This document shows positions 7,901-55,131 of a stretch of 64,000 nucleotides of DNA, piece by piece; the stretch's first letter is position 1; every line of letters begins with the position of its first letter. Under the pieces are notes generated by a model, which saw only the letters and a list, made by a program, of their open reading frames with translations, was not told the origin of the DNA and did no database searches. The translations under genes were made by a program, and so were the position numbers. The stretch comes from Polytrichum commune (Eukaryota > Streptophyta > Polytrichopsida > Polytrichales > Polytrichaceae). The stretch covers positions 36,089,081 through 36,153,080 of the forward strand of contig OX485809.1 in the NCBI GenBank assembly GCA_950295325.1, in the 5' to 3' direction.

Positions 7901-8180
7901 AGGGAGGAGAATGGCGGCTCCACATATTGAGGCAACCCAAAGAAGGAGAAAGATTACTTTCGACAAACGACATAAGAGAAGGGCCCTAACACCGGGAATG
8001 ATGGTCATGATTCAAGACGCACGAAAGCTTGAATTTCCGGCGAAATTCAATGCGGTATGGTTAGGACCTTACCTTGTCTATGAGGTCTTTCCTAATAATT
8101 CAATTCAATTGGAAACGTTGAATGGTGAGCTCTTTCCTACCCGTACATCGGGAAGTAGATGTAAGGAGTACCGAGCTTGA
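1941..8180 (+). CDS. Gag-Pol polyprotein of the Ty3 element
   Basis: One uninterrupted frame of 2079 residues follows an ~890-base leader. Seen in order: a proline-rich stretch near residue 115 (repeated PPIPPIP); a retrotransposon Gag domain around 150-310; a CCHC zinc knuckle starting at C432, a further Cys/His stretch and a second knuckle near 515-530; an aspartic protease with DGGSS at 852-856; reverse transcriptase with FVDD at 1374-1377 (the usual YVDD with F for Y); RNase H with its first Asp near 1522; an integrase HHCC zinc-binding region from H1730; and the catalytic triad D1800, D1861, E1897 with the classical 35-residue D-E spacing. The product makes and integrates element cDNA. 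Gag and Pol are fused in frame, so no frameshift is needed. All key residues are present, so it is probably active. The Met at 1941 is the first in the open frame; other start sites are possible. Confidence 0.96.
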   Translation: MQGRTRSQKPSLIVGLEKSTRKRRSSKISDRLEQDNVRIESCLNVEPRTRSILDTLELGAQLEEEITPSKLSGETSSENYTLREEFPVEVDRGLLNSSPVTMAEERGMDPPPIPPIPPIPPIPPIDPLVRPRGLPIVVPQNLAAMDMPSHLPKFYGTKDEDPSRHMERYIERLASFLITDPGYWLVWFPTTLEGEAYEWYRDHAEGHFRGWEQLQREFLNEFRPEVGQSTALRALSSLKQGREEEISAYIRRFDLVCTRFVGTMLNDDTLKQFFIQGFFKSGTIRGVLERNPLTLADAKRAARDIENLDKDHERLWRREDELIPQFIPIRPRVVAVEPAKYENQIPYAIVDTGPRPLAVREPAPLLALPAPRTDPHLEEVERRLGASQLGFQEAMIKQMQSLTDQMSLMIRSQQPGPPPPVESGRHSSGLWCVQCGQPGHTRQFCRSGQNRDQRGNGNPPQQNQRGQAPPHYGNGSNRGPQPRGQGGQNLEKKEFHPFCGRWHAQGQCWSEGQEFNCSNCGGSHPSDTCRQPDKIINAPYPVANPQQQARDNMRGARPQGVPANELRPPNLYYDHSNARQTFHPPAGLQTTTGYIPIQNRQGVPPNGSNGRQAPPTDPGPSNSQDVRFMDGVLEATCDDMLPLPTRIGEEQSQWPPHTNAITYELVKGKGVVEEAPALAVTTRARRGDAPLEVGIGEQGNYSSDEEINLSELDRVARRATKDVERENIILQDRERTNAVHDLNNSDVGEWEGPGVPVDEFDVVGNSKVERSTGYDLWADLSTLKADITFGQLLEISPTARKTLKEGMPVHKRMRKVKAKIAARIQSQGGRDVKAIEIEVVIVDKVVPNVLVDGGSSLNILPEDTMKKLGLGLTGPSPLVINMANQSSTTPLGMIKDCRMTTGGEEYLVTFHVIKMHSNKDTFPILLGRPWLRMANAMVNWGGPKPSITYGPEGNRVIVSIGSLEGWMKKEMYLPLEKEIDDLNENEIGKALVGVVHPEVQRVVIDSGSGSLGPNFYNYGDNGDYAQWLREYPESEVDVMVTFHQVGLGSEFPSVSLGEGSLLEPCEVLTEEEWVSGGLTPWVDDVEEGEVSLIHVDGTQEEDVIIESSKLEEPLHFKTTSTGIVVGQDVKDYPNVPSDWYRNKEEQAHVSEADWRYVDVKLKNGKTRQMKMGSKLGEKEVREYSNLVDEFSDTFAWSYDELKGIPREMVEHRIPLIPGARPIRQKERRMNPQLQLLVKVELERLLKAGFIKPVEITDWVSPMVLVKKKNGKLRVCVDYRKLNSCTQKDHFPLPFITLLLEEVGGHSRYTFMDGYAGYNQISIALQDIHKTAFTTPWGTFVWVVMPFGLCNAPATFQRLVMYIFTNLLFKSMTVFVDDFSTQSNVDDHLHCVREALVRCRKMRLALNPDKTFLGVNKGVLLGYVVSEKGREPDPDKIAAISDLATPTNSKGISKLLGHVGWYRELIPNFSKIAVPITHLLKKDVKFEWTDACQKAFEELRDRLSTYPVLIPPNWGKPFHVYCDASNVAIGSALCQATGEKEKDQPIAYASKQLTPAERNYSTTERECLAMVFSVKKFRHYLMCNPVVFFVDHMVIKYLINKAELSGRLARWVLLLEEFDYTVEYKPGRMHLQADHLSRLSEEIGKNPVNDMLVDDSLFVVTSTPEWYAGIVEFLTTHKLPKEWTKEERRKVRVNSRQFVVVGHRLFRRGSDGILRRCVSKTEVEAILIACHDSACGGHFSGQLTGQKILRAGYFWPTLFKDAHDYVRKCDACQRYARNDLRMEMPLHVSLPLIPFEKWGIDYVGEVHPQSSKGMKYIVVATEYLTKWAEAKAVKTDTAEHAATFMYENIISRFGVPKILVSDRGTHFLNDLIREMTEKFKIDHRKTTPYHPQTNGQTERVNGILVSILRKTVIDSKRDWDTKLTAALWAYRTTYKVTTRATPFSLVYGLEATLPIEYEVESLRVAVSTRLTESQSLRNRLTDLEALDEGRRMAAPHIEATQRRRKITFDKRHKRRALTPGMMVMIQDARKLEFPAKFNAVWLGPYLVYEVFPNNSIQLETLNGELFPTRTSGSRCKEYRA

Positions 8181-31147: not shown

Positions 31148-34129
31148 TCACAGCGAAGGAAGCGGCTTGGTAAGAGCTTGAATGCAGGTATGATGTTTAT
31201 CTTTTGGAAGAGACTTGGTCAAGATGTTGGCCCACATAGTGGAAGTTGAAGTAAATTGTAGTTTCAAAATCTTGGCCTGAACTTTCTCACGGAGAAAATG
31301 GAATCGCAGGTCAATATGTTTAGATCGATCATGATACTTTGGATTCGCACTTAAGGTAATACATGACTGATTGTCACAGTAAATGATGCCGGGGAAAGTC
31401 AGAGAGTAACCAAGTTCTTGTAGAAGAGCTTGCAACCAAAGTAGTTCTTTGGTGGCAGTGGCGGTGGCAATATATTCAGCTTCCGTGGACGAGAGAGCGA
31501 CGATAGTTTGCTTGCGGCTTTGCCAGGATAGAAGACATGATGAGTCAAGTTGAAAAATATAACCCGAAGTAGACCGACGGGTGTCAATATCACCTGCCCA
31601 ATCAACGTCACTCCAACCAGTTAACTGGTGGAGAGAAGGGGGAGCTGAAAGAGAACTAGAATAGACAAGTCCTTGTTTCGAAGTGCCACGTAGATAGCGA
31701 AAGATGCGTTTGACTCCAAGCCAATGAGCTGGAGTTGGGTCCTGCATGAATTGAGCAAGATGATTGACGGAGAAAGCTAGATCCCAACGTGTGCACGTAA
31801 CAAGATATTGAAGACTCCCGATAGCTTGTTTGTACGGGACCTTGTCCATTAGGTGTTGTTCGGAAGATGGAGGATTATCAGGTTGGTGGCGTGAGTATCG
31901 AATACCAGCTTCGAGAGGCGTTGCAACTGAATGAGAAGTGGCCATATTAAATTTAGTTAAGAGATCATTGATGTATTTTTCTTGTGACAATAATAATGTC
32001 TTATGAAAACGATCCCGTTGGATTTGGATGCCAAGAATATAGCCAATCTCGTTGTTATCTGTCATGGAAAAACGTTGATTGAATATGGCTTTTGTAACAG
32101 TTAAAAACTGAAAGTTGTCGGAGATGAGAACTAGATCATCGATATAAAGACCCAAGAGTAGAATGGAATTGTGTGATCGCTTAATGTAAACGTTTGGATC
32201 TGAGGCACATTTAAGAAAGCCCTGACTTAATAAGAATGTGTCAAAAGTTTCGTACTAGACTCGGGATGCCTGTTTGAGACCATAGAGGGATTTTAAGAGG
32301 CGGCATACTTGATGTGCAGTGCCAGGTTTGATATAACCCTCAGGTTGCGTTATGTAAATTTCCTCATGTAAGGTTCCGTTTAAAAAGGCTGTGATCACAT
32401 CCATTTGATGGATGTGATAGTTGTAAATAGTGGCCAAGGCTAAAAGAAGTCGCAATGATGTCATTCGAATAACAGGAGAAAAAGTTTCAGTAAAATCAAT
32501 TCATTCTTGTTGAGAGAAACCACGAGCGACAAATCTTGCCTTAAAACGCGATAAAGAACCATCAGAGTTGTATTTTCGTCGAAAAATCCATTTGGTGCTG
32601 ATGATAGATCGATTTGGCAGCGGATCAACAAGATCCCAAGTGCGATTGTTAATGAGAGAATTATATTCCTTGTCCATAGCGTCTTTCCAATCTTGAGAGT
32701 GAGCACTGGAAAGTGCTTCATGGACGGTGAGAGGTTCAGCGAGCTCAGCTAAGAAGCCAAAGCTGTAGAGGTTAGTGTCATGAAATCGCGGAGTATATCG
32801 TTGTCCTTTAGTGGAACGTGTGGATCTCCGAAGGTGAGGAGGAGAACTAGATTGGGCTTGACGGAGATGAGAACGCTGATGTGCGGAAGTTGGAGGTAAA
32901 GTGATTGGATCGTCATCATCAGGAGGGGGTGGGGTCTTGGGTGGGTCCTGGTTTGGTGGTTCCGGTGGAGTATGGGTAGAGTTGTCCGTTTTGAAGTTTG
33001 ATGGCTGATTCAGTGGTAGTGAGTGGGTAGGTCCTGGTTGAGGAGAAGAGGACGCAGGTTCAGGGAAATAAAATTCACCAGGATCAAGAGGGGGTGAATG
33101 AAATTTTCCAGTTGAAGAAGTTGAAGAAGAACTGCCATCAGATAATAACATATTTTCTGAAAAAATAACATCACGATTTGTAAAAGCAAGTCGGGATTCT
33201 GGATTATACAAGTGATAGCCCTTTGTACTTGATGAATAGCCGATAAAAATACATTTCATGGCCTTGGAGTCTAATTTCTTGCGGCGTTCTTTTACAATGT
33301 GAGAGTAAGCCGGACAACCAAAAATTCGCAAATCAGTAAGATCAGGTCGTAACCCTGTCCAAAGTTCGTATGGGGTTATGTTGTTTAAAGAGGTAGTATA
33401 AGAACGATTTTGCAAATAGCAGGCAGTGGCCACAGCTTCGGCCCAGAAATGTTTGCTCAGATGAGCAACTTGAAGCATACTTCGTGCAGCTTCAATCAGG
33501 GTACGGTTCTTCCTTTCGGCAACCCCATTTTGAGCAGGATGGTATGGATTGGTAAGGTGATGTTGAATTCCATGATCTTGACAAAATTTTGTAAAATTGT
33601 TGGATGTATATTCGCCACCGTTATCCGAGCGGAGAATAAGTATTTTGTGTTTGTCATGGTGATTTTCTACTAATGTCTTATAAGTTTGGAAATAAGACAA
33701 AGTAGAAGATTTCTTCTTTAAGAAATATACATGGGTAAAACGAGAGTAATCATTAATGAATGAGAGGAAATAAAGAGCACCACCTAATGAAGGTGTACTC
33801 ATAGGGCCACACAAATCTGTGTGGATTAAAGCCAATGGGGCAAGGGCTCTTGTAGAAGGAGATGTTGGGTAAGAATTTTGGGTTTGTTTACCAAACACAC
33901 AACCCTCACATAGAGAGAGAGTGTTTTTTAATGTAGGAAGTCCATTAACCATGTTGTGTTTTTGCATAAGGTTAATGGAACGTACATTAAGGTGACCTAA
34001 GCGGTAGTGCCACTTAAGTGTTTCTGAGGCAGATTTAGGCAAAGTTGTAGAGATATAGTTGGATTCTGATGGGAGAATACCAATGCCAAAAGAGAATAAA
34101 TTACCTTCTTTTGGAATTCGAAATATCAT
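31148..34129 (-). pseudogene. copia pol: integrase, reverse transcriptase, RNase H (broken)
   Basis: Three segments lie in one frame: 34129-32501, 32464-32255 and 32155-31148. The first has a GAG-pre-integrase HHCC region (HYRLGHLNVRSI, CEGCVFGKQ), the integrase core (HTDLCGPM, RSDNGGEY, NGVAERKNRT), a proline-rich linker, and the start of reverse transcriptase (TKWIFRRKYNSDGSL). The next has LNGTLHEEIYITQPEGY. The last has the YIDD active site, SDVDWAGD and STEAEYIA of RNase H, and the usual copia end. A TGA at 32498-32500 and a TAG at 32252-32254 interrupt it; the latter stands where Trp is usual. It begins in the -1 frame relative to gag, just overlapping its stop, where a base seems to have been lost from an A-rich run. 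Confidence 0.93.
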
Positions 34130-35337
34130 TGTTTAGTTGAGTCTGGTGACTTGGTTTTAATGAGACATTGAGTCTGAGTAAATGTAATGATTGTGTTGCC
34201 TGTGGTCATAATTTGACTTACAGACAATAAGTTCTTGGCAAGGCCAGGGACATGTAACACATCAGGAATCAATAAACATTCTCCAGTGGGTACTTTTAAC
34301 ATGATAGAACCATAGCCAAGAGCATTATGCGAGCGATTATCGCCGAGAATTATCTTTCTCGGGGTTTCGAGAAGTTGGTAATCTCGAAAGAGTTCCTTTT
34401 GAGGAGACATATGTTGGCTAGCACCCGAATCTAGATACCATGACGAGGAAGGGCCAGAATTATCACATATTGTCGAAAAAAGATAATCTGGTGTGTCAGT
34501 AGTAAGGATACGACTAGTTTGAGTAATAAGAACATTATTAGCTTGGTTGTGCTCATTCTTAGCTTGGTCGCGCTTTTTCTTACGACACTCAGGAGATTTA
34601 TGCCCTGGGATCCCACAATAATGATAAACAATAGTCCTTCGAGTAGATGAGTTAGTATGTTGATCAGTTGGTTTTTGTCTAGACCAATTCTTTTCATTGT
34701 TCCGAAATTGTGAGCGGTAGCTTTGCTTGTTGTTCTTAGGAAATTGTCTAGAGAAATTGAACTGATTTGAAGATGGCTTGATAAATTTGCCCTTAACATA
34801 GAAAGCACTGGATTTTGATGTCTCAGGCTTAGAAATATTGATGGAATTTTGTTGGAGTATATTGGAGAGTAGAGTCGAAAATGTCAGATTGGCAATACCA
34901 CCTTGCGTGGTTATAAATGCACTCCAAGAATCCGGTAAAGCAGCGAGTAGCAAATTAACTTGCTGGTCTTCTGTGAAAACACATCCGGCAATTGCAGCTT
35001 CGTTAAGAAGCGACTGCCATGTTTCCAAGAAGGACATAATGTCGTCAGAATCTGACATAGTCAAGCGGCAGAGTTGCTTATGCAAATTTACCTGCGACGC
35101 TTTGTTAGATTTCTCGTAGATTTGTTTCAAACGATCCCAAACCTGCTTAGAGGTTGTGAGAGAACGTAAAGAAAGGAGCTGCTTCTCATTACAATGGAGC
35201 AAAAGCTCTGATCGAGCCTTGACATCACGTAATCTCCAGGCTGCCAAGCCTACTATGTCACTTGCAGCAGGGGCTACATCGCTACCATCCACGACGCCCC
35301 ATATTTCAGAGCGAATCAATAATAACTCAAGTTTCAT
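34126..35337 (-). pseudogene. copia gag and protease
   Basis: 403 residues are open. The frame extends upstream of the first Met, since DNYATWSMKLELLLIRSEIW, the usual Gag start region, is partly before it; an in-frame TGA then appears near 35390. It has the UBN2-type Gag domain (residues ~10-170), one zinc knuckle whose first Cys is replaced (YHYCGIPGHKSPEC, Tyr for Cys), and the protease with DSGASQHM. It ends in a TGA overlapping the start of pol by four bases. In intact relatives gag and pol are one frame, so this junction is a mutation, not programmed recoding. Confidence 0.9.
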
Positions 35338-39987: not shown

Positions 39988-40310
39988 CCTCCGAAACAGA
40001 TGTCTCCGACTAGATTGCAGTGGATCGCCGCACCAAATTGGACCTCCGAACTAGACCTTCACCCTGGACCTCCGAAACAGATGTCACCAACTAGATCGCA
40101 GTGGATCGCCGCACCGAACTAGACCTTCACCCTGGACCTCCGAAACAAATGTCACCAACTAGATCGCAGTGGATCGCCGCACCGAACTAGACCTTCACCC
40201 TGGACCTCCGAAACAAATGTCACCAACTGGATTGCAGGTGGATCGCCGCACCGAACTAGACCTCCGAAACAAATGTCTCCAACTAGATCGCAGGTGGATG
40301 CAGAAACAAA
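39988..40310 (+). repeat. 68-bp tandem repeat, about four copies plus part-copies
   Basis: The unit begins GACCTCCGAAACARATGTCA and contains AGATCGCAGTGGATCGCCGC and AGACCTTCACCCTG. The copies are very similar, so the array is young. It is GC-richer than its surroundings. Confidence 0.85.
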
Positions 40311-40836: not shown

Positions 40837-40841
40837 GGTTT

Positions 40842-41283
40842 TGTCACGTGAGGTGACATCGGGGGCTAAGTTACGTCAATTTAGGAGTAAATGGACTCCA
40901 TTAGGAGTCCATGTGTGTTGGGATGAGTAACGGACTCCATTGGGAGTCCTAGTTAGTTGTTCATCCACTCCATAGATGAACTCCACATAGGATTGGGGTT
41001 GTATGGAGAGGAAGGCCTCTTGACTTGCCATTGTTGTCAAGTCAAGTCTTGTGAGTGTGTTTTGAGAGAGAGAGAGAGAGCTTGTTGTTGCTTTCTCATG
41101 GCTATCGTGTAGTAGATTATGAGTAAAGCCTTTGCATTCTTTCTCCACCACTTGCACTCTTGGATTCTCCCTTCGTGGAGTGAGAGATAGCTTGACTCTT
41201 GTGTGTGAATTTCAGAGTTTCTTAAGCTTTGTAAGAAGACATTTTAGTTTCTTAAGCTTGGAGAGAGAAACCCTCATACTTGA
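40842..41283 (+). repeat. left terminal repeat (block B)
   Basis: 442 bp matching 50019-50460 at a constant offset of 9177. The only difference seen is G versus A near 41261/50438. It starts TGTCACGTGAGGTGACA, itself partly palindromic, and holds a (GA)n run. Unlike the right side, block A does not follow it; internal sequence begins at once. I find no TGG-initiated primer site next to it. Confidence 0.92.
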
Positions 41284-41613
41284 CAACAATTGTGACTCAA
41301 ATTTTTCATTTTTGGTTGTATTTCTGAGCTAGAATGGCCCAGTTATGAGAGCAAATGAGTGATACAAGTGTTTGAAAGCTTAGTTTGTCATTTCTTGCAA
41401 CCCTCAAGAAGATTTTGAGAGAAATCTTCCCATTTTTCTTTTGTTGTCTCTTTGTGTTTTCTTCAATTGTTGATGCTTGAATCTTGAGATTCCATTTGGT
41501 CTCAAGATTCTCAAGTCATATTTTTCTTGCTTGAAAATTGTGGAAGCAAAGTTTAATTTTTTAAACACAAACACAAACCAAATTCAAAATCCGATTTAGT
41601 TTTTTATTTTTTT

Positions 41614-41840
41614 TTGAGCTCCGGACGGATCCGGAGCTCACCGGACCCTCCTGGAGCTCCGGTTTTGGACACTGCGGCAGAAACCCGGGCCGGGGCGGGC
41701 GTGCGCAGGCCGGGCCGGGGGCGGGCGGGCGCAGGCCGGGCCCAGGCGGCAATGGAGCGGGCCAGGCGAGCGGGCGTCGGCCGGGCCCCACCGGCGGGCG
41801 GACGCCAGCCAAGCCTGGCTGGCTTGGCATTAAGGTAAGC
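41614..41840 (+). other. GC- and CpG-rich island in the leader
   Basis: A stretch of about 225 bp is mostly G and C, with repeats of GCGCAGGCCGGGCC and GGGCGGGCG. It stands between AT-rich flanks and before Gag. Frames exist on both strands only because of its composition; I do not call a gene. It could be a promoter-like or captured host segment. Confidence 0.7.
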
Positions 41841-42017
41841 TTAGCTTACCTTTGTTTTTTTATTTTTTATTTTTTTATTTTTTTATTTAAACAAAAAAAT
41901 AAAACACTTATTTTTACTTTTTACTTTTACTTTTTTTACTTTTTAATATTTTTTTCACATTTTTACTTTCACCTTTCAAACTTGGCATCCAATTCTCACA
42001 AACTTTGAGGGTGAAAT

Positions 42018-42300
42018 TTGGGGGCATACTAACTCCGAACGGAGTGAAATTTGAGCCTATCTTGTGTGAAATTTGCCAAGGAATCCAATGGTGTAATTGG
42101 ATTGTTGATTGGAATTCAAAATCATTGCTGAAATTATTAATTTCAACGCTGATTTTTGTTTTTGGGAGCAAATTAACTCCGAATGGAGTGAAATTTGAGC
42201 CTAATTTGTGTGAAATCTTCCTAGGAGTCCATTGGTGCACTTAGTTTGTTGATTGGAGTCCATAATCACCTTGGAAATGAGCCTTTTCAACGCTGATTTT
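42018..42300 (+). repeat. ~145-bp tandem duplication in the leader
   Basis: Two copies each contain ACTCCGAAYGGAGTGAAATT, TTTGAGCCTA, then GTTGATTGGA and TTTCAACGCTGATTTTT. They differ at perhaps 15-20% of positions. Confidence 0.8.
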
Positions 42301-42456
42301 TCATTTTAATTACCAATCTCAAACCTTTGCACAATTTTGGAATTCTGGGGGCATAAACACTTGGCATTTGGCAAGGGATTGCCATTTAGATAGCCCGCAA
42401 CAGGTGCAGATTGCCATTACCTTGTAGATAGTTGCAGGTACTCAAGTGATTATTTT

Positions 42457-44676
42457 ATGGTGCAAACTAGGAGCCGATATTATCGATCTCCATCACCAGA
42501 TTACTTGGAGGACGTGCATACCACAAATCTTGAGCCAGAGGTAGATACCAACGAGGCTTTTGAGCCTATTTCGGCGTTGGACACTACTAGTAGGCTTCGG
42601 ATTTGGAGTGTCGGCACGTTCGACGAAATGGAGGACGATCGCCACAATTCAGTACGTGATCGGTTTTCAGGTCGAGCTGGGGGCATTTCCTTGCCCGATT
42701 GGAAACTCCGGTTTCGTACCTGGATTAAGGAGAAACGCCAAAGGTCTTCCAATTTCAATGATTGGTATGCCTTTGAACTTCTGCCTCAACATTTGGAGTA
42801 TGAGGGACTCCAAACTTATGAACGCTGGACAGAGGGTCATCAGCGACAACTTCGGGAGGTGGAGCAGTATTGGGAGGCTCGGGTTGAGCTCATTTCAGCC
42901 CTTAAGGATGGGGCGGTTGCTACCTTAGCTCCACCCACCTTAAAGGAGGAGGAATCGCCGGCGGAGTCTAAGGACACGGAACTGGCACTTGGGCCAATGG
43001 TGGCTAGCAGTAGCACGGCAACCCTTTCACGGGTGGCACGTGCTACACAGGCAGCATTGACGGTTGTTGGTCCACCACCTCCGTTTAATCCCCTTACTGA
43101 ATTTGTCGCACATTTGGAAGTGGAGTATGGTGGGTTTCGGCGAGACCAGATGCAGCGCATCCAGGATTTCCACCGAGAGAAGGATGATACTCCACGGACC
43201 ATGTATACGCGACTCGCGCGATTTGCTGTGGAGTCGGGAGGTGTTTTTGCTGAGAGTCAGCTTGTTAAAATCTTTTTGTCTAAGATTGACAAGCGGCTAC
43301 TTGAGTTGGCATCACCTCGGATTATCCTCGACTACGAGGGCCGAGCTACGCTTGCACAAGCGTTTGCCGTGGTTGAGAGATGTGATCGGGCTTTTTGCCA
43401 ACATGATGCCACGGATATGGTATCTTGGATGACAGAGAGTCCGAAACCAAGAAGAATTGTCACAGCTACTAGTAGTTTAGCTGAGACTCAACCCGTCAAG
43501 GAGCAAAAGATTTTGCATTGTTGGGGTTGTGGAGAAGCTGGTCATTCGAAGAATGATCCTTATTGTCCTAAGAAGAAGAAAACTCAGCCTTTGGGAAAAT
43601 TAAAACAAAAGATGGAACCAGTAAAGGCAGGGGACCATTCTAAGAAGAGACAATTGAAATGTAACCATTGTGGTGGCACTAATCACGATGTGGATCATTG
43701 TTTCCAACTTCATCCTGAGATGCGGCCTGCCAGTTATGTCACTGGAAAGTCTCCAAGGGAGCAAAGTCTTGAGGCTAAGGTGGCAGAGCTTGAGCAAAAG
43801 CTCAAATCTTCTGCATCTTTTGCTCAAATTTCTGAGCCGCATGTGGGTGGTGGCACCTCGGGTTCGGACATGTATATGTTTGGAGCAGCTGGAGAGGTGG
43901 TGGCGGCGGCGGCTTCTACTCGCTCACAAACATTGGCAGATGCGGTAGCTTCCACGAGTGGTGGTAGCAACGAGGTGCTACATCCTCGCCATGCCGGACC
44001 AGCTGATCAAATTGGTCAAGCACGTTTACCTCTTTTATTTGGATTGGTAGACACCACTGTTGTTGGGGCTAAAAACCCTGTACCTTTGAGAGATGGGGAT
44101 TCCATCTCGAAGGATGTTACGCAGGCATTGGCATATAAAATTCTCCATATGCCAATTTTCTCGGGTTCGGAGTTTATGGCTTCGGATTTCAAGCCTGCTG
44201 CAGTTTTTCATTTAGCTGGGAGAATGTTAGAAGGTAAGGCGGATTTGCCATCCCTTCAAGTATCCCAAGCTGTGGTTGACGTACCTGTGGCTGAGGAGGT
44301 GGAGGACTTAGCCAATTTGCGAGTGAGTCTTGCGGATGCGGCGATCATTGCTTTTGGTAAGCAAACTGATATTCCTCCAGCATCAATTTCAGCAGTGGAT
44401 ACGTCATTTTCGAATTATGCGTTGGAAGCGGCATATCTTGCAGATATTTTTGCAAGGCCTGCTCGCGAACGGCATAATTTGCAACCTGGAGTTGTACGGC
44501 TGATGAACGACAAATCTTTGTTTGTCATTTCACGCACGGATATGCCCACTATCCGTGCTACACCACTGAGAGTTATGATGGATTCCGGTGCTCAACCGGT
44601 TATGATTGGCAAAGGACTTGCTAACAATCTTGGATCCTTGTCCATTCACTATTGTGACTTCAGTAGGGGGCACTGA
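42457..44676 (+). CDS. Gag and start of protease (methyltransferase retroelement)
   Basis: 739 residues. A charged, serine-rich N-terminus (MVQTRSRYYRSPSPDYLED) is followed by a Gag-like helical domain around 190-320. Two zinc knuckles follow: CWGCGEAGHSKNDPYC (CCHC with one extra residue) and CNHCGGTNHDVDHC near residue 400. A long linker leads to the protease motif MDSGAQPVMIG (DSG codons at 44581-44589). The frame then shifts around 44620-44640, and the rest of the protease continues in the +1 frame. Since the break falls inside the protease domain, it is a mutation rather than a programmed site. Start: the first Met after the AT-rich leader. Confidence 0.85.
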   Translation: MVQTRSRYYRSPSPDYLEDVHTTNLEPEVDTNEAFEPISALDTTSRLRIWSVGTFDEMEDDRHNSVRDRFSGRAGGISLPDWKLRFRTWIKEKRQRSSNFNDWYAFELLPQHLEYEGLQTYERWTEGHQRQLREVEQYWEARVELISALKDGAVATLAPPTLKEEESPAESKDTELALGPMVASSSTATLSRVARATQAALTVVGPPPPFNPLTEFVAHLEVEYGGFRRDQMQRIQDFHREKDDTPRTMYTRLARFAVESGGVFAESQLVKIFLSKIDKRLLELASPRIILDYEGRATLAQAFAVVERCDRAFCQHDATDMVSWMTESPKPRRIVTATSSLAETQPVKEQKILHCWGCGEAGHSKNDPYCPKKKKTQPLGKLKQKMEPVKAGDHSKKRQLKCNHCGGTNHDVDHCFQLHPEMRPASYVTGKSPREQSLEAKVAELEQKLKSSASFAQISEPHVGGGTSGSDMYMFGAAGEVVAAAASTRSQTLADAVASTSGGSNEVLHPRHAGPADQIGQARLPLLFGLVDTTVVGAKNPVPLRDGDSISKDVTQALAYKILHMPIFSGSEFMASDFKPAAVFHLAGRMLEGKADLPSLQVSQAVVDVPVAEEVEDLANLRVSLADAAIIAFGKQTDIPPASISAVDTSFSNYALEAAYLADIFARPARERHNLQPGVVRLMNDKSLFVISRTDMPTIRATPLRVMMDSGAQPVMIGKGLANNLGSLSIHYCDFSRGH

Positions 44677-45151
44677 ACGTGCAACAGGTTATACCAAGGC
44701 ACCTTTACGTTTGATTTTTCATGTGGGGGCAGGGCCTACTTACACTCATTTGTCAATGAAGTGTGTTGTTACTAATGCTACCAACTATGATATACTTGTT
44801 GGTCAGCAAGCTCTTTACCCACTTGGCTTTGGTTTGGATAATTGAACGGAAGAGGCATGGATTAGACCGGGATGGTCCACTGGAGATGGCAGGAAGGTAT
44901 TTATTCCCGTCACATTTGCAGCCACTGCTATGACTATGGTTGCGGAGGCAATGTTTGGTTGCAGCGGTTCAGTTGCAGATTTGCCTTGTGCTCCAGTTTT
45001 ATTGGAGGAAACAATGGACTACACTTGTAATGCGGCAGAACAACAATTTTTACCATCTTTTCAAATTCCTGCTTGACATTTCAAGGATCCACCTCCACCA
45101 TGGCGAACTCCTAAGGAGTTATCCGACCATTGTCAACACATTGTAGCGGAT
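44606..45151 (+). pseudogene. rest of protease and linker (broken)
   Basis: In the frame shared with the methyltransferase, the protease continues (TGYTKAPLRLIF, NYDILVGQQALYPLGF). TGA stops fall at 44843-44845 and 45074-45076. The sequence between and after them is still coding-like (WIRPGWSTGDGRKVFIPV, DPPPPWRTPKEL), which shows one original frame running into the methyltransferase. Confidence 0.75.
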
Positions 45152-46279
45152 TTGGAGCTTGGAGAGGCACCTCCTACTTCATCCTCATTTTCTTTTGCTC
45201 AACCCATTCGTTGGCAACCATCACCTGAAGGTATTGTCCTTGTGGAGATCTTTGGAGGCATTGGCACAGGTTTGGCGGCAGTGTTGGAAGTTGGAATTAC
45301 AGTTTGGCGATATATTCATGTGGACAATGGGTATGCAGCCAACAGAGCCGTCTGACACCACATCCAACAATTGTTGTTGAGATACCCCACACAATTGTCA
45401 GCCTCTGCCATTCATGGATGTTGTGATCAACTTCCTCAAGATGTCACTATGATTAGTGATGAGGATTTGAGAAGGTTGGGCCACGTGGATTTGATTATTG
45501 CAGGATGGCCTTGTCAAGGCCATTCGCGGGCAAGAACTGGCCAGGGATTGGATGATCATAGGTCTAGTTTGTTTGCGGATTTGATGCGATTGACGCAATG
45601 GTGGTTTACCCACCAATCAACTCCGCCATGGTACATTTTCGAAAATGTACCATTATTGGGTGATACCCGGCACAAAGTGGTAAAGGATGGTGAGTACATT
45701 AACCAAATTCTGGGTACTCCAACATTTCTGGATGCTGCATCTTTGGGATCCTTTGCTCATCGGCCTCGTTGGTTTTGGACCAACTTGGTATCACCTCGGG
45801 TGCTTTCAGCGGCGATTGCCCGCATTCCCCGCCTTATGGATCGCAAGGTGGATGACATTTTAGACGATCATCGTGTTTCCTTGGCAGTTACCAATGATGA
45901 CACCTTGCCATTTGCATTAATTAACAAGGTGGGCATTCCGAGAGGTGTACTACCTACTTTTGTGACATATCCACAGTCTTTTGCATTTCGATCTCGTGGA
46001 CTTGGCATGGTTTGGGATTCAAAATCCCAAACTTATGAGGAGCCTACTGCAGATGAGCGGGAACGCGCCATGGGTTTTCTTACAGGTACCACGGCTGCTC
46101 ACGGGCTTCAGGAAGGTCAGAGACGTTTCCTATTGGTGCAACCTATGGATCTTAATAGCATTGTGTGGATAATTGGAATTTGTCTTGCTGCTCAACAACG
46201 TATGGATGACCAATTGCTTACTCTGAGGGCAGAGAACAATGGTCAGGGGGCAATGGAGCCGCATCCAAGGATCACATGA
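45152..46279 (+). pseudogene. C5-cytosine DNA methyltransferase domain in the retroelement
   Basis: The domain runs from about 45225 to 46190 in the same frame as the pol segments. Visible motifs: motif I VLVEIFGGIGTGLAAVLEVG (AdoMet binding); a motif II-like YIHVDNG; motif IV DLIIAGWPCQGHSRA with the catalytic Cys of PCQ at 45509-45517; motif VI FENVP at about 45641; motif VIII-like HRPRWFWTN at about 45761, close in form to the HRARYFWGN type of DNMT3/DRM enzymes; motif IX/X region ERERAMGFLTG and MDLNSIVWIIGICLA. The family transfers methyl groups to carbon 5 of cytosine. A target-recognition stretch lies between VIII and IX. One TGA at 45353-45355 separates motif II from the rest. All catalytic motifs are otherwise present, so the ancestor was probably active. 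It lies between protease and reverse transcriptase and would be made as part of the polyprotein. Confidence 0.87.
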
Positions 46280-46600
46280 GGGATTATTTCCTTTGAAACT
46301 TCATGTTGCGGAAGAGCTTTGAGCCCAACGTGTTTTTTCGGCTTTGGCCCAAGAGTTTGGGAAGTTGGAAGCCCATAAAATGTTTCCACTTCTATTTCTT
46401 GGTGATACTTCATATGTGGGTAGCTATTTAGCTACACAAACCGATTGTAGTGGAGAGGATACGCATTTGGATTCAAGTGCAGATGATGGGGGCAAAGGTG
46501 TTGCCCTCTCCACGGACTAGCAATCACAGGCTGTGCTGGCACCAAGTGGCAATCCTTCTATGAAGAAGGAAACCACGGAGTTGACGATTGGCCAATTGAA
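46280..46600 (+). pseudogene. linker between methyltransferase and reverse transcriptase (broken)
   Basis: Coding-like pieces (HVAEEL, RVFSALAQEFGKLEAHKMFP, LLFLGDTSYVGSYLATQTD) lie in a frame other than the domains on both sides. A TGA follows EEL and a TAG lies near 46518. Function unknown. Confidence 0.5.
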
Positions 46601-49057
46601 GTGGGGCCAAAGCTTACTGGTGCCGAAGCACGAAAGGTACGGGCATTTATTCGCTCTTACCGTAATTGTTTTGCCTTTAGTCTTCATGATCTTGAAGGAT
46701 ATAAAGGTAAACATGTTCGTATTCAACTCGAGGACGACCACCCTATTTTCAGACGGCCGTACAGACTTAGTACCTCTGAAAGGTTGGGTGTTCAAACTCG
46801 ATGTCAAGAGTTATTGGCAGCGGAATTGATTGAACTCTCCAATGGAGAATATGTTTGTGCCACGGTTATGCCGTCAAAGAAGGATATCTTTGGCAACTGG
46901 ACGGAAAAACGGATGTATGGTGATTATCGTCCAGTCAACCGCAAGACCAAGTCGGATTGATATCCAATGCCGATGCCGGAGGAGTTGTTTGATGCACTGG
47001 GATTTTCTAGAATCTTTAGCACTCTGGATTTGAGGTCTGGTTATCACCAATTACCTTTGTTGTTGGGTAATCGGGTGAAGACTGTATTTTGGGGAAATGA
47101 TAAAGATGGCAAGGATCAACTTTATCATTGGAAATTTCTGCCATTTGGTCTCAAGAATGCACCAGCTGAATTTCAGCGGGTGATGGATCAATTATTGGTT
47201 GGTTTGCCGTTTGTTAGATGTTACATTGATGATGTTATCATCTTTAGTAATAGTCCACATGATCATGTGAGACATTTGCAAGCGGTATTTGAACGACTTC
47301 AACGGTGGGGACTCCGTTTACATCATGGAAAATGTAAGTTTTTCCATGATGAATTGCCCTATTTAGGCCACATGATTGTTCATGGCGGTCTTGGTGTGCA
47401 ACAGGCGAAGGTGGATGTTTTGCACAAAATTCCTGCACCTAGTGATGTACCACGTCTTCGTGCATTTCTAAGATTGGCAAATTATTATATGAGGTTTGTC
47501 AAAAACTTTAGTTTGATTTCCAAACCTCTTACCATTCTCACGGGGAAAGACCAACCATGGATTTGGAGTCGGGAACAACAACATGCATTTGATACATTGA
47601 AGCAGAGGCTCGGTTCAGCGCCAGTGCTTCGACGCCCGGATGTGTCTAGAGCTTTTAAATTGCACACGGATTGGAGTGCAGTGGGATTGGGAGCGGTATT
47701 GACACAGAAAGATGAAGAGGGAAAGGAATATGTGGTGACTTATGCACATTTTCGACCTTATTTGTATGGGCAAAAGTTTACTTTGGTGACTGATCATCAG
47801 CCTTTAAAATGGCTTATGGAATCAGATAAGCTCACCGGGAAACTTGCTAGGTGGGCATTGTTACTTCAGGAATATGATTTTGAAGTTGTTCACCGAGCAG
47901 GAATTGCCAACTTGGATGCAGACGGATTGTCTCGCAATCCAAGTCCTTCGGATGAGGATTTAACTGGAGCCATGTGGCATGGAGATTGTGATCGTGAGGC
48001 AGTGTCGGGTTGGCATGCTGCCACATATCTCACAATGATGTCGGGATTGGCTGCTGAGATTCTTGTAGAGGAACAAGATGAGGAGGTTGATAAATCTCTC
48101 GTTGTTAGTGATGTGTGGGAAGACCAGGCGGTCTTGTACAAACTTCAACAAGGGATATTTCCTCTTGGATTATCTGCTATGGAGCGAGATAGAGTTAGTC
48201 ACCGGATAACAAGGTTTCGTTGGGCAAACAGCTTGTTATTTCGTGTGTGGCCGAACGGAACGAGGCGCATCGTTCCAAGGCCAGATCAAAGAGCTTCTTT
48301 GGTGCGGCAAGTGCACGAGGAGCTTGGACATTTTGGAGTGCGAAGGACGCACTCTATGTTGCGCAACCAATATTGGTGGACTGGTATGTATCAACAGGTT
48401 GCCACTTATGTTTCTCAGTGTGAAGTATGTGACCGGGTCAGGTCAAGTTTTAATACTTTGTCACCTCAACTTCAGCCTTTACCTATTATGGGCTTGGGAT
48501 ATCGTTGGTCTTTGGATTTTGCCGGACCGCTTACTATCACTCCACGTGGTTCCAAGTATGTGTTTGTGATGGTGGAGCATTTTAGTAAGTGGATTGAACT
48601 CGTGGCTCTTCCCCAAAATTCCTCAGAATTGGCGGCTATGGCATTTCTTGATCGAGTTTTGGCACGGTTTGGAGCACCTGCAGAGGTGTTGACGGATCAA
48701 GGAAGAGAATTCCTTCGATCTTTCGAGGCTTTATGTACCAAGGCTTTGATTGATCATCGGACAACTTCCAGAGATCACCCTGAGGCAGATGGCTTAGCTG
48801 AACGAGTTGTTCAGACGGTTAAGCGCGGTTTGCATAAGTATGGATTGCTTCATGGCAACCATCGCGATTGGGACTTGATGTTACCATGGATAGCAATGAG
48901 TTATCGTTTCAGCAGGCAAGCATCTTTGGCATTCTATAGTCCTTACCAACTCTTGTATGGACGGGAACCAATTTTACCTAGCTTGGTGCGAGAGAAATTG
49001 GCTCCCGTAGTAAACTTGGATGATCCAGATGTTTGGGCTCAATGTCTTCATGACTGA
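46601..49057 (+). pseudogene. reverse transcriptase, RNase H and integrase (methyltransferase retroelement)
   Basis: Two segments lie in one frame (46601-46960 and 46967-49057), split by a TGA at 46958-46960 inside the conserved start of the palm (KTKSD, stop, YPMPMPEELFDAL). Reverse transcriptase has DLRSGYHQL, FLPFGLKNAPAEFQ and the active-site YIDD at 47222-47233. RNase H has HTDWSAVGLGAVL and TDHQPLKW; the usual stretch between them is short, so part may be deleted. Integrase has the HHCC region (HEELGHFGVRRTH, CEVCDRV) and the DDE residues at 48515, 48695 and 48800 (34 residues between the last two). A TGA at 49055-49057 ends the frame, but coding continues. The ordering and motifs are clearly Ty3/gypsy. 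Confidence 0.93.
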
Positions 49058-49297
49058 GCAGCGTTCTTCCAAAAGGCCATGCCTATGGCTATGGAGAACT
49101 TAAATATTGCTCAACATTGTGATACATTACGGTATGCCCGGATCCGCAGTGGAGCTTATCGACCTCAGGTTCGTAGATTTTCCAAGGGGAATTATGTTTA
49201 CTTGCAACGGGAGGCGCCTACGACATTGGATGTCAAGGCTGGGCGCACGATTTTACGGGTAAAAGATTGTCTTGCCAAGTGGTATATTATTGCTTGA
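49058..49297 (+). pseudogene. integrase C-terminal part (broken)
   Basis: The same frame as the integrase continues with AAFFQKAMPMAMENLNIAQH, then VRRFSKGNYVYLQRE, typical of the DNA-binding GPY/F-like C-terminal module (KGNYVYL). The frame shifts near 49262, where VKD should lead on into LPSGILLLEGKDG of the next frame. Confidence 0.75.
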
Positions 49298-49616
49298 AGG
49301 CAAGGATGGACGGGAATGTCGTGAGCATTCAAAGAATTGTGCTCCATGTCACCTTCCCATCGACGGCTCTGTGCATCCCGAGTTGGCGGTTGTACCACAG
49401 GGTCTGCCTTGTTATGTTTGTGGAGAGAAGAAAGGAGCTGCAACAATGTTATTGTGCGACCAATGTCAACGTGGATGGCACATGGCATGTTTGACACCTC
49501 CCCTTTTATTCTTCCTTCTGGCAATTGGGTTTGTCCTCGTTGTCGGAAAGCCTCTAATTCCGTGGCCGTTAATGGTCATGATTGAGAATTTTGTGGATGT
49601 TTACCACATGTTTTAG
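49272..49616 (+). pseudogene. PHD finger at the end of the retroelement polyprotein
   Basis: After a basic/Cys-rich linker (ECREHSKNCAPCHLP) comes CYVCGEKKGAATMLLCDQCQ, then RGWHMACLTPPL, and, one frame further, LPSGNWVCPRCRK. Together these give the C2-C2-HC-C2 zinc ligands of a PHD finger from 49410 to 49543, a fold that in chromatin proteins reads histone H3 tails. The shift (near 49515) sits in a C/T-rich run. The finger occupies the place where chromoviruses carry a chromodomain, so a role in choosing integration sites is a reasonable inference. Confidence 0.82.
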
Positions 49617-49908
49617 TGGTGAAGTTGTTATTTAGTTGGTTGGAAATTTTATGGAATTAAGACCACATTGAAAGAGTTATCCAAGAATTCAACATTAATT
49701 GTTGAAGGCGATTAAGGATGGGGCTCACATTGCACCCAGCCTACAGTTCTTGGATTACTTTGTCAATCACGAGTTTAATTCCTTCGATTACTACTACCCA
49801 ATTAAATATGTATAGATGTAGCAACAACTTCATCATGTTCAACAACTCTACCGATGAGTGTGTTTGTTCCTAGCCGATTGGAGGGGCTCCTTATCTGCTA
49901 GTGGGGGC

Positions 49909-50017
49909 ACTTGAAGAGGTGGTTGTTTAGCATTTTAGTTTGCTATTTTATTTTGCTAATTGATGTTGACAACGACACTCAATCTGTTGTGTTTAACGAT
50001 CTTAGTTTACACGACAG
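49909..50017 (+). repeat. block A, first copy
   Basis: 109 bp identical to 50455-50563. It begins right after a purine-rich GTGGGGGCAC (49901-49910), a plausible polypurine tract, with TGAAGAGG at 49912. It ends in ACGACAG and is joined through C to TGTCACG of block B, making the palindrome GACAGCTGTC. Confidence 0.9.
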
Positions 50018-50018
50018 C

Positions 50019-50460
50019 TGTCACGTGAGGTGACATCGGGGGCTAAGTTACGTCAATTTAGGAGTAAATGGACTCCATTAGGAGTCCATGTGTGTTGGGA
50101 TGAGTAACGGACTCCATTGGGAGTCCTAGTTAGTTGTTCATCCACTCCATAGATGAACTCCACATAGGATTGGGGTTGTATGGAGAGGAAGGCCTCTTGA
50201 CTTGCCATTGTTGTCAAGTCAAGTCTTGTGAGTGTGTTTTGAGAGAGAGAGAGAGAGCTTGTTGTTGCTTTCTCATGGCTATCGTGTAGTAGATTATGAG
50301 TAAAGCCTTTGCATTCTTTCTCCACCACTTGCACTCTTGGATTCTCCCTTCGTGGAGTGAGAGATAGCTTGACTCTTGTGTGTGAATTTCAGAGTTTCTT
50401 AAGCTTTGTAAGAAGACATTTTAGTTTCTTAAGCTTGAAGAGAGAAACCCTCATACTTGA
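50019..50460 (+). repeat. block B, right copy
   Basis: Matches the left terminal repeat. Counting from TGAAGAGG (49912) to CCCTCA (50453), blocks A+B form a 542-bp LTR-like unit. TACT then separates it from the start of a further copy (TGAAGAGG at 50458). Confidence 0.92.
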
Positions 50461-50563
50461 AGAGGTGGTTGTTTAGCATTTTAGTTTGCTATTTTATTTT
50501 GCTAATTGATGTTGACAACGACACTCAATCTGTTGTGTTTAACGATCTTAGTTTACACGACAG
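50455..50563 (+). repeat. block A, second copy, at the right end of the element
   Basis: 109 bp identical to 49909-50017 (overlapping the end of B by the shared ACTTGA). It ends in GACA, then GTTT of the putative target duplication. Confidence 0.9.
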
Positions 50564-50839
50564 TTTTTACTTTGTAGGTGACTACTCCGGAATGTTATGA
50601 TTGAGGGAGTTAGCTCGCGTGATCATGAGCGACACCATATGTAGCTTCAGGAGGAACTCCAAGCCAATAAGTGACCATGCAAAGGCTTGTGGAAGCATGA
50701 TTCATTGTGTGTTCCTTGCATTGGGAATGAGTGCAAGCATCAAAACTTGCTTACAAAAAAGTTTATTAGAGAAGTGGCCACAAAGGATTGTTGAATTCAT
50801 TGTTATTGGCAATTGGTGTTATAAAAGAAGATAAAAGTA

Positions 50840-53766: not shown

Positions 53767-55131
53767 CTACTCACACTCTACAATACCAGCAAGTTCAAGT
53801 AGTCGCATGACCTCGTTATAGGTATATGTAGGTGCATGAATGAACTTGTCACTCTCGTAATCCACCTTGCACAAAAATCTAAATACATAATAAAGATGTC
53901 TACAATACACCCATTTTCCTTTCTTTCCCAATGCATGAGAGGACATTTTCGTGAAATCCGGGCATGTCCAATGCGGGATGTCGCCAATTGTGACATGGTA
54001 GGTGATATCCTGCTTGGAGACAATGTTGATTATCACTCCAAAGCCCGGATATGGAATGGCAGTGACTCCAACCACATAGTAACCCTCTATGAGTCCGGCG
54101 CTCTCCCATTTGTTTTTGTGAACCGCTAGCGGTGCTGTTGGATTACGACGCACTGTCTTCTCAAACCTGAATGTAGGGTGGGCGTCCGGGTTTGGTGGCA
54201 TAGAAAAATGCGAGCGAAGGATGGGGAGAGTTGCGATTGTTGAAAGCCTACGACGAAGGGACAATGCCTCCCTCTGCTGTAGTTGAAATCCAACATCTTC
54301 AAGTGCCAAAACCTCCTCTCGCAATAGATTGGTACCTATCTTCACCGGCCACGTGTTGGGTACTATAGGCCAGTCCAACACATATTTCTTCTTACTGCCA
54401 CTCACACAACGTTTCATGTCGTCAGGGCAAAACCAAAATTCATACTCCACATTGTTGGGAGAGCGAAATTCCTTCCTGAGCCCTTTGTATGTTGGAGCAG
54501 GTGTGCCATGTTTCCCAGTCCCGACTTTGGCATTGCACATAGTCCATGTGATGGCCTGCAGTGCCCAACATCGTTTGGCTGAGTTGGGTGGTAATCTTAC
54601 AATGTGCCAGTTAGAAGCAAGACAATCTGTCTCTAACACGGATGTAGTATGAGCCACACCATGAATTGCAGAATTCAACGATTCCTCTATGCGTTGACGA
54701 GTTGCTCGGGTGTTGGGATGAGGAATGGAATAGTTCACTTTGTCGGGTCGATGAGAATCACAATCAGCACCCGGTGGTAGGTTGAGTTTGCGTTTGGTGG
54801 AACTAAAGAGCTCTGACCCTTCCAATGCACAATCTCTAGTGTTGACGTCTTCTGGCCCTGGATAAGACTTCATGGCATCGGCCAACATTTTTGGATCTCC
54901 ACACATGGCAGCCGCTTTGAGTTTCAAGTATGCCGAATCAGGACCTTTACCATCAGACCCCCCTTTCAACCATGTCCGGTAATTTGCAATTTGCATGAAG
55001 GCACGGATCATGTCGTCCACTGTAGCTTCATATAAACAAGTCATCTTGTTGCCGGACTGTTGGAGCCATTTGTTGTGTACAGTCTCTGCAAGATTGCATG
55101 TTGGCATTTCCGCACGCTCTTCTATTGTCAT
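53767..55131 (-). CDS. SWIM-type transposase-like protein, C-terminal half
   Basis: An open frame of 454 residues. Near the N-terminus is MPTCNLAETVHNKWLQQ. Such N-x-AE-x-x-[HN] motifs hold the last catalytic Glu in Mutator-type DDE transposases, so the first two Asp residues would lie upstream and are missing here. The middle has SNWHIVRLPP and YEFWFCPDDMKRCV. The C-terminus, DIPHWTCPDFTKM followed by WVYCRHLYYVFRFL, fits a SWIM zinc finger (CxC...CxH) with the first Cys replaced by Trp. The ATG is preceded on the minus strand by TTGTTCATAG, a good 3' splice site at about 55137. The frame is therefore probably a last exon whose upstream exons were lost or replaced by the palindrome arrays. 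It could be a captured gene fragment rather than this element's own transposase. It points away from the second gene. Confidence 0.6.
   Translation of the reverse strand: MTIEERAEMPTCNLAETVHNKWLQQSGNKMTCLYEATVDDMIRAFMQIANYRTWLKGGSDGKGPDSAYLKLKAAAMCGDPKMLADAMKSYPGPEDVNTRDCALEGSELFSSTKRKLNLPPGADCDSHRPDKVNYSIPHPNTRATRQRIEESLNSAIHGVAHTTSVLETDCLASNWHIVRLPPNSAKRCWALQAITWTMCNAKVGTGKHGTPAPTYKGLRKEFRSPNNVEYEFWFCPDDMKRCVSGSKKKYVLDWPIVPNTWPVKIGTNLLREEVLALEDVGFQLQQREALSLRRRLSTIATLPILRSHFSMPPNPDAHPTFRFEKTVRRNPTAPLAVHKNKWESAGLIEGYYVVGVTAIPYPGFGVIINIVSKQDITYHVTIGDIPHWTCPDFTKMSSHALGKKGKWVYCRHLYYVFRFLCKVDYESDKFIHAPTYTYNEVMRLLELAGIVECE

Follow-up and report, generated by a model that had tools for sequence, protein, structure and literature searches.

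A split-repeat Ty3/gypsy retrotransposon of Polytrichum commune with a DNMT3-type cytosine-5 methyltransferase encoded 5' of a conserved UAG

Positions 40842-50562 of the 64,000-nucleotide stretch of Polytrichum commune DNA analysed here (the window) are occupied by a Ty3/gypsy retrotransposon with GTTT on either side, a 4-bp target duplication (Table 1). Protease (PR), reverse transcriptase (RT), RNase H and an integrase (INT) with an rve core follow one another in Ty3/gypsy order. A cytosine-5 methyltransferase (MT) domain lies between protease and RT, as an earlier note on this DNA had claimed: its stop-free part, 45371-46276, matches PF00145 at 4.3e-12 (score 46.6 bits, cut-off 22) in the HMM search which that note had proposed, and a Pfam scan places RVT_1, RNase H, H2C2 and rve domains 3' of it. 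The window copy is broken. The reading frame shifts around 44630-44664, at 46270-46278 and again at 46583, and stops stand in 44630-46270 (three, including the TGA at 45353 within the MT domain), in 46278-46517 (one) and in 46583-49582 (four). The bounds of the MT domain were set by comparison with an open copy of the element, L010. In open copies ORF1 has 1386 codons and ORF2 1047, stop to stop; the protease matches in L010 (PF13650/PF13975) are weak and under the Pfam cut-offs. Just 5' of Gag, the leader contains a 144-nt tandem duplication of about 80% identity (window 42017-42304), listed in at least 16 of 20 copies with up to six repeats listed per copy. About 580 bases 5' of the element there is a tandem array of a 68-bp unit in 3.2 copies (window 40046-40263).

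Table 1. Features of the element, in window positions.
Feature	Position	Strand	Basis or remark
Left target-site duplication GTTT	40838..40841	.	same as 50563-50566
Repeat A1, promoter side, putative R + U5, starts TGTC	40842..41277	+	1 mismatch in 442 nt against A2; end placed at CCCTCAT via the A2/B2 joint
Putative self-primer segment ATTGTTGTCAAGT, within A1	41030..41042	+	perfectly complementary to 41278-41290
Putative primer-binding site ACTTGACAACAAT	41278..41290	+	site present in 16 of the 17 copies tested
Gag and first protease part (ORF1 as far as the frame change)	42457..44676	+	93% identity with L010 ORF1 residues 21-758; DSGA at 44581
DNMT3-type cytosine-5 methyltransferase (MT) domain, TGA at 45353	45227..46198	+	PF00145 4.3e-12; 25-relative profile vs PDB: DNMT3A top, 1.4e-22
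TAG CAATCA, fits type I readthrough motif UAG-CARYYA, MT/RT boundary	46518..46526	+	also in 42 other copies
ORF2: reverse transcriptase, RNase H, integrase; broken in window copy	46521..49582	+	PF00078, PF17917, PF17921, PF00665
PHD finger 3' of integrase, approximate	49411..49545	+	projected from L010 ORF2 residues 990-1034; PF00628 2e-10 in L010
G-rich polypurine-like tract GTGGGGGCA, directly 5' of B1	49901..49909	+	sequence
Repeat B1	49910..50016	+	109 nt around B1 same as B2
B1/A2 joint, palindrome GACAGCTGTC	50013..50022	.	GACAGCTGTC in 16 of 17 copies with joint
Repeat A2	50019..50454	+	match to A1
Repeat B2, ending GACA	50455..50562	+	A2/B2 joint CCCTCAT/A/CTTGAAG in window copy
Right target-site duplication GTTT	50563..50566	.	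same as 40838-40841

The motifs of the MT, I (VEIFGGIGTG), IV (GWPCQG), VI (FENV), VIII (AHRPRWFWTN) and X (LVQPMDLNSIVW), stand in the canonical order, as had been read from the DNA before; the order in DRM enzymes departs from it. When a profile of 25 relatives was compared with PDB chains, DNMT3A/B/C came first (1.4e-22 to 2.2e-18), followed at lower ranks by 4onj (2e-11), which we take to be tobacco DRM, DRM2 (4e-9), DNMT2 (1e-8) and HhaI (1.6e-7), and no chain named DNMT1 or CMT appeared up to E 1. On the strength of its profile scores and motif order the MT is DNMT3-type, its position within DNMT3 being taken from the profile scores. In the alignment to DNMT3A, FENV is identical, HRPRWFWTNL lies opposite HRARYFWGNL, and PCQ lies opposite PCN, which is typical of DNMT3 motif IV. 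Some relatives have ECQ (protein records P0028, P0030 and P0140) or ECA (Chlamydomonas eustigma) instead of PCQ, and at motif VI the Klebsormidium group has EHV where this element has ENV. The catalytic Cys is retained in all 12 aligned rows, and motifs VIII and X are separated by a long conserved stretch, the expected place of the target-recognition region; the Klebsormidium gene model is without the stretch from motif I to the DIR/DIS segment preceding motif IV. The suggestion that PCQ within DNMT3-like sequence marks a distinct branch is supported by the DNMT3A alignment, the PDB profile and the relatives, which together argue for a separate DNMT3-type group.

We searched the P. commune genome (407.8 Mb in 64 contigs, seven of which were seen to measure 42-78 Mb) with the MT as the query, so that counts cover MT-bearing relatives only. 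All 130 places scored gave a match, with 62-100% identity, and as they were taken from 557 first-look candidates the genome holds at least 130 copies. Besides the window copy, 42 distinct copies were read closely (2 + 20 + 20). Their choice was not random: one batch of 20 comprised 16 near copies and four divergent ones, the other the next near copies by rank. The MT domain is without stops in 31 of the 42. Gap-free alignment over at least 97% of the MT was obtained for 41 copies, namely 40 of the near family (29 of them stop-free) and the divergent L026, likewise without stops. A host gene inserted by chance is ruled out by the 130 scored copies and by the domain being retained in the divergent subfamily of L026. 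A1 and A2 are 98.4-99.8% identical in 14 of the 16 copies compared, a sign of youth, and the recent activity of this LTR retrotransposon family belongs to an explanation that we consider fairly probable as a whole. The near-identity of A1 and A2 in the broken window copy implies that this copy may have moved in trans after breakage, or that its repeats were homogenised.

How firmly the MT is held can be judged from substitution rates. Because young copies carry unpurged changes, the following ratios are upper values: pN/pS among stop-free near copies is 0.47 for the MT (29 copies), 0.27 for the Gag part (12), 0.50 for PR (19), 0.15 for RT (14), 0.17 for RNase H (14), 0.21 for INT (14) and 0.41 for the PHD finger (16), and dN/dS for the 20-copy set plus the window copy, broken copies counted, is 0.42, 0.29, 0.54, 0.23, 0.29, 0.20 and 0.58, respectively. 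Between L010 and L026, dS is saturated (PR, MT, RT) or 1.6-2.7, and dN is 0.34 for PR, 0.27 for the MT, 0.16 for the PHD finger, 0.09 for RNase H and 0.07 for both RT and INT. The MT of these two copies aligns over 323 residues with no gap and no stop, at a dN about 3.7 times that of RT. By these measures the MT is kept, less tightly than the replication enzymes. As for traces of methylation, the CpG observed/expected ratio is 0.66 in the element, 0.68-0.69 in five open copies and 0.78 in L026; the value for the element is not under the window mean (0.61) and is slightly under those of two MT-free elements (0.75 and 0.76), and TG+CA is somewhat raised (1.23-1.27 versus 0.97 and 1.15). The trace in base composition is weak and could stem from the host. 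CpG depletion is at best a weak sign of self-methylation.

The earlier note had put the MT in the frame of RT and integrase. The shared frame stands, since the stretches 44630-46270 and 46583-49582 of the window are in the same one, as are ORF1 and ORF2 of open copies, but continuity does not: a single TAG separates the ORFs in open copies, and the TAG at 46518-46520 lies between the two stretches in the window. Between MT and RT, the motif UAG-CARYYA was found in all 43 copies read, window included. A TAG-anchored pattern picks up TAG followed by CA in 41 of 42 copies, all but L026, and among these 41 the hexamer varies at one site in one copy. Three hexamers occur after the TAG, CAATCA, CAACCA (L016) and CAATTA (L026, at the same place despite differing flanks), and all fit CARYYA. 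The second codon after the stop thereby encodes different amino acids (Ser, Pro or Leu), yet the motif is preserved, a pattern pointing to selection at the RNA level. As near copies are not independent, the weight of this conservation rests on L026, whose subfamily is saturated at synonymous sites relative to L010 in MT and RT. L026 also rules out that the TAG is a nonsense mutation of one source copy. The sequence is that of the tobamovirus-type, or type I, readthrough signal UAG-CAR-YYA as given in PMC3542737, and we infer that the TAG may be read through into ORF2. An additional TAG between the MT and the readthrough site of L026 counts against this model. With the motif placed 3' of the MT and 5' of RT, the MT is part of the Gag-protease ORF and not of Pol. 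Beyond the part that aligns to ORF1, each of the 15 metagenome relatives (P0003-P0017) continues for 0-49 residues before it ends, at a stop or a contig edge.

ORF2 ends with a PHD finger (PF00628, 2e-10, residues 990-1034 of L010). The domain is also present in P0141 and P0142 of C. eustigma and in P0140, and it was not found in P0132, a partial model, or in P0028. Being common to P0140-P0142, it is probably old in the group. Chromodomains of other gypsy integrases hold a similar position, and by analogy the PHD finger might help to choose insertion sites. Among the literature matches, no on-subject paper linking a PHD finger with a gypsy integrase was found.

The repeats of the element are split. 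The layout is A-internal-B-A-B in 17 of 21 copies (the window copy and L009-L028) and A-internal-B in two (L018 and L023), and it was not readable in L015 and L026. Instead of the two full bounding LTRs of Ty3/gypsy elements we thus find an A/B layout that rules out ordinary LTRs. The order of the repeats is the A-coding-B-A-B order of DIRS elements, which to our knowledge have neither a DDE integrase nor a target duplication. Here, no tyrosine recombinase match was obtained with either ORF of L010 in a Pfam scan up to E 1, and rve and H2C2 are present. The ends, TGTC...GACA, are of the integrase type (TG...CA with a short target duplication), and the 4-bp duplications of copies with both ends found are perfect in 16 of 18 and agree at 3 of 4 bases in the other two.

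Two joints characterise the repeats. At the B1/A2 joint, 16 of the 17 copies that have it read GACAGCTGTC and one reads GACAACTGTC. The A2/B2 joint is CCCTCAT/CTTGAAG (up to two substitutions a side allowed) in 15 of the 17 copies with A2, L028 having one substitution; in L016 it was not found, and in the window it holds an extra A, the base that stands at this place in B1. A1 ends with the same CCCTCAT, followed by ACTTGACAACAAT. A segment of A at about position 186-201 is complementary to this putative primer-binding site over 13-16 nt in 15 of the 16 copies with the site. In L021 the match is 9 nt, under its own shuffle maximum of 11. Shuffling A (200 trials per copy) gave maxima of 9-13, and 13 was reached in two of the 16 controls (L010 and L013). 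As the copies are related, the self-primer match is in effect one observation, and the stronger argument for it is that pairing starts exactly at the end of A set by the other joint. As for tRNA priming, no TGG-starting site was seen by eye directly 3' of A1. Priming by the element's own RNA is known from Tf1/Tf2 of fission yeast; here the putative primer segment is about 186 nt into A, so that an RNA start would be needed near there. GTGGGGGCA lies directly 5' of B1 in most copies, and the position of the A2/B2 joint, with the self-primer site to one side and this polypurine-like tract to the other, is exactly that expected of fused cDNA ends. The A/B joint thus looks like fused cDNA ends, with the ends of the integrated element at the internal palindrome, and the layout would reflect integration from circles by a DDE integrase. 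For the A-internal-B forms, recombination between B1 and B2 is another possible source. In L019, the A repeat at each end contains an additional partial duplication, which looks as though it had been copied from one end to the other during replication.

Starting from the observed domains and their order, the conserved motif, the repeats, the joints and the duplications, we propose a model in which readthrough, self-priming, a circle as the integrase substrate, DNA as the MT target and a purpose for methylation would be linked. ORF1 would yield Gag, protease and the DNMT3-type MT, and a small share of ribosomes would read through UAG-CARYYA to add RT, RNase H, integrase and the PHD finger. Encoded 5' of the readthrough site, the MT would be made at the level of Gag and packaged in each particle. 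A piece of the element's own RNA would prime reverse transcription at the end of A, and with a polypurine start 5' of B the cDNA would be [B A]-internal-[B A]. Joining of its ends into a circle would create the A/B joint; the integrase would then open the circle at the palindrome GACAGCTGTC inside the repeat and insert it with a 4-bp duplication, giving A-internal-B-A-B, or A-internal-B from a one-repeat circle. Most likely the packaged MT would methylate the cDNA circle ahead of its integration, and the new copy would thus be marked from the moment of insertion; self-methylation of the element, an older idea, is plausible. We regard the whole model as somewhat better than even in probability. 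It is tempting to speculate further that a gypsy lineage extending from green algae to bryophytes gave up integration by linear LTR ends, its DDE integrase opening fused 2-LTR circles at an internal palindrome while a Gag-level DNMT3-type MT marks them, and that split-repeat elements (DIRS, SymbioDIRS, KnitGypsy and this one) repeatedly captured cytosine or adenine methyltransferases because a long-lived nuclear circle needs a mark. This extension is put forward tentatively, as a conjecture that may well fail.

Other readings of the same data deserve consideration. The A-internal-B-A-B layout might result from template switching onto the B1-A2 stretch, with a linear cDNA that has TGTC/GACA ends and no circle to be opened. 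Template switching is a proposed source of the split repeats of DIRS elements, and here B1 and A2 would adjoin in the presumed RNA and so could serve as template for the end that is missing. That PMC5890265 equates the repeat structure of its Klebsormidium nitens element with that of DIRS also speaks for this route. The position of the A2/B2 joint exactly between self-primer site and polypurine-like tract speaks against it, as does the one-base difference of the window joint, the base there being that of B1, and we see template switching as possible, if on the unlikely side. The TAG might also merely end ORF1, ORF2 being expressed by reinitiation, by splicing or from its own RNA. The RNA folding 3' of the TAG is indeed unremarkable (z -1.77; 11 of 200 shuffles equally good), but the frame is the same on either side, L026 has kept UAG-CARYYA among differing flanks, and the protein records P0028, P0030 and P0132, the last a partial gene model, run unbroken through MT and RT, which makes a plain end of ORF1 decidedly improbable.

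Two further alternatives concern the MT itself. Its target could be host chromatin or RNA rather than the element's own cDNA, the enzyme silencing competing elements or methylating packaged RNA, with packaging being incidental. A position 5' of the TAG would suit an RNA or host target equally, the trace of methylation in the base composition is only weak, and an RNA target is suggested for SymbioLINE in PMC5890265; nevertheless, the profile affinity to the DNA-acting DNMT3 is far above that to DNMT2, and the stretch between motifs VIII and X is conserved where the target-recognition region would lie. We find such a target unlikely. Alternatively, the MT might be carried along without catalytic activity, or in a structural role, by a gypsy element that is ordinary in other respects, a reading that would agree with the pN/pS of the MT in young copies and with the departures in motifs IV (P0028, P0030, P0140, C. 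eustigma) and VI (Klebsormidium group). It is harder to reconcile with a gapless, stop-free domain retained across synonymous saturation within one genome, with its occurrence in named hosts from Marchantia to Klebsormidium and with a catalytic Cys kept throughout the 12 aligned rows, and we hold it to be improbable.

The kind of element is already known: KnitGypsy-Dnmt3 of Klebsormidium nitens (de Mendoza 2018, PMC5890265) is, as described there, a Gypsy element with a DNMT3-type MT in its coding region and a repeat order like that of DIRS, in keeping with the earlier mention of relatives in a charophyte. It apparently extends from algae to land plants with the present element. The record P0132 (KFL_009030040), in the order PR-MT-RT-RNase H-INT, would be one of the published copies. 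Its MT is 43.5% identical to that of the present element over 255 residues, with EHV instead of ENV in motif VI, and no PHD finger was found in this partial model. PMC5890265 places the MT of KnitGypsy-Dnmt3 in the Pol ORF, whereas it lies 5' of the conserved UAG-CARYYA here. According to the same paper, one Gypsy MT of K. nitens gave no methylation in yeast, a result which its authors call inconclusive. SymbioDIRS-Dnmt3 and SymbioLINE-Dnmt of dinoflagellates are likewise retroelements with a cytosine-5 MT, and SymbioDIRS shares the A-coding-B-A-B repeats; as described in PMC5890265, they are set apart by a tyrosine recombinase or LINE machinery in place of the DDE integrase found here. Cleavage of 2-LTR circles or palindromes has been reported for retroviral integrases (PMC1180852, PMC1905944), likewise a case of DDE integrases acting on a palindromic joint; the palindrome of the present element differs in being internal to the repeat, and its integrated copies contain the fused ends in their interior. 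No title on a split-repeat gypsy element was among the literature matches listed.

Among the open-access literature matches listed, we found no report of such elements in land plants, subscription papers being mostly outside this scope. A statement in PMC6338049 has DNA-methylase-encoding transposons absent from land plants such as tracheophytes, and PMC12344493, in the part concerned, names streptophytes and dinoflagellates. Five Marchantia DNMTs, of MET, CMT and DRM type, are given in PMC5784723, and PMC9985172, on liverwort repeats, nowhere mentions methyltransferase or DNMT. Three traits were not found described: a Gag-level MT 5' of a conserved readthrough motif, the PHD finger, and the signature of a circle together with a DDE integrase. 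At the level of sequence, the repeat anatomy argues for integration from circles by a DDE integrase.

Cytosine methylation is a main defence of plants against retrotransposons, and despite this the element carries and keeps a methyltransferase, placed with Gag. Young open copies exist, and MT-bearing relatives are annotated in Marchantia, a model plant in which the published idea of self-methylation could be tested genetically.

MT homologues occur in a Pol-like protein of Klebsormidium and in proteins of Marchantia, Calypogeia, Sphagnum and a chlorophyte. The closest among named sources are those of Marchantia polymorpha (49%, P0019), Calypogeia fissa (46%, P0079) and Sphagnum fallax (35%, P0035), and matches closer than Marchantia are without a named source or from a bacterial MAG. 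The latter, P0036, filed under a Candidatus Obscuribacterales MAG, is 75% identical to the MT of the element and is probably plant DNA binned into the MAG. No relatives were present in the viral or prokaryote contigs scanned. Three proteins of C. eustigma (P0141-P0143) have an MT of about 31% identity, with a C-terminal PHD finger in P0141 and P0142 as here. Their MT follows RNase H and precedes the integrase (P0143) or lies in the gap between RT and integrase (P0142), as against the protease/RT gap here, and its position in P0143 requires either that the MT relocated within the element or that it was captured a second time.

A tree of 38 rows, built from element MTs and their database relatives, contains a bryophyte-type clade (98/96; 24 rows, including members from P. 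commune, Marchantia, Calypogeia and Sphagnum), a Klebsormidium group (100/100; five rows) and a group with C. eustigma (100/99; six rows). Support is weak for its deepest forks (43/20), and a warning of long branches that meet was issued by the program. RT and integrase trees, with one outgroup and with 5 of 11 and 1 of 8 forks well supported, do not contradict the MT tree. PMC5890265 treats the K. nitens event as a local one of that lineage, independent of those in dinoflagellates. The MT ancestry common to Klebsormidium and bryophyte elements puts such a local capture in question and suggests, as a lead, an older capture or transfer between hosts. The window also contains a 454-codon ORF without a significant Pfam match (53767-55131, minus strand), a Copia-like element, named by eye, of three ORFs with gag, integrase and RT/RNase H features (31148-35337, minus strand), and a second gypsy element (1941-8180), which served as the tree outgroup and whose single 2079-codon ORF encodes Gag, PR, RT, RNase H and INT, with no PF00145 match.
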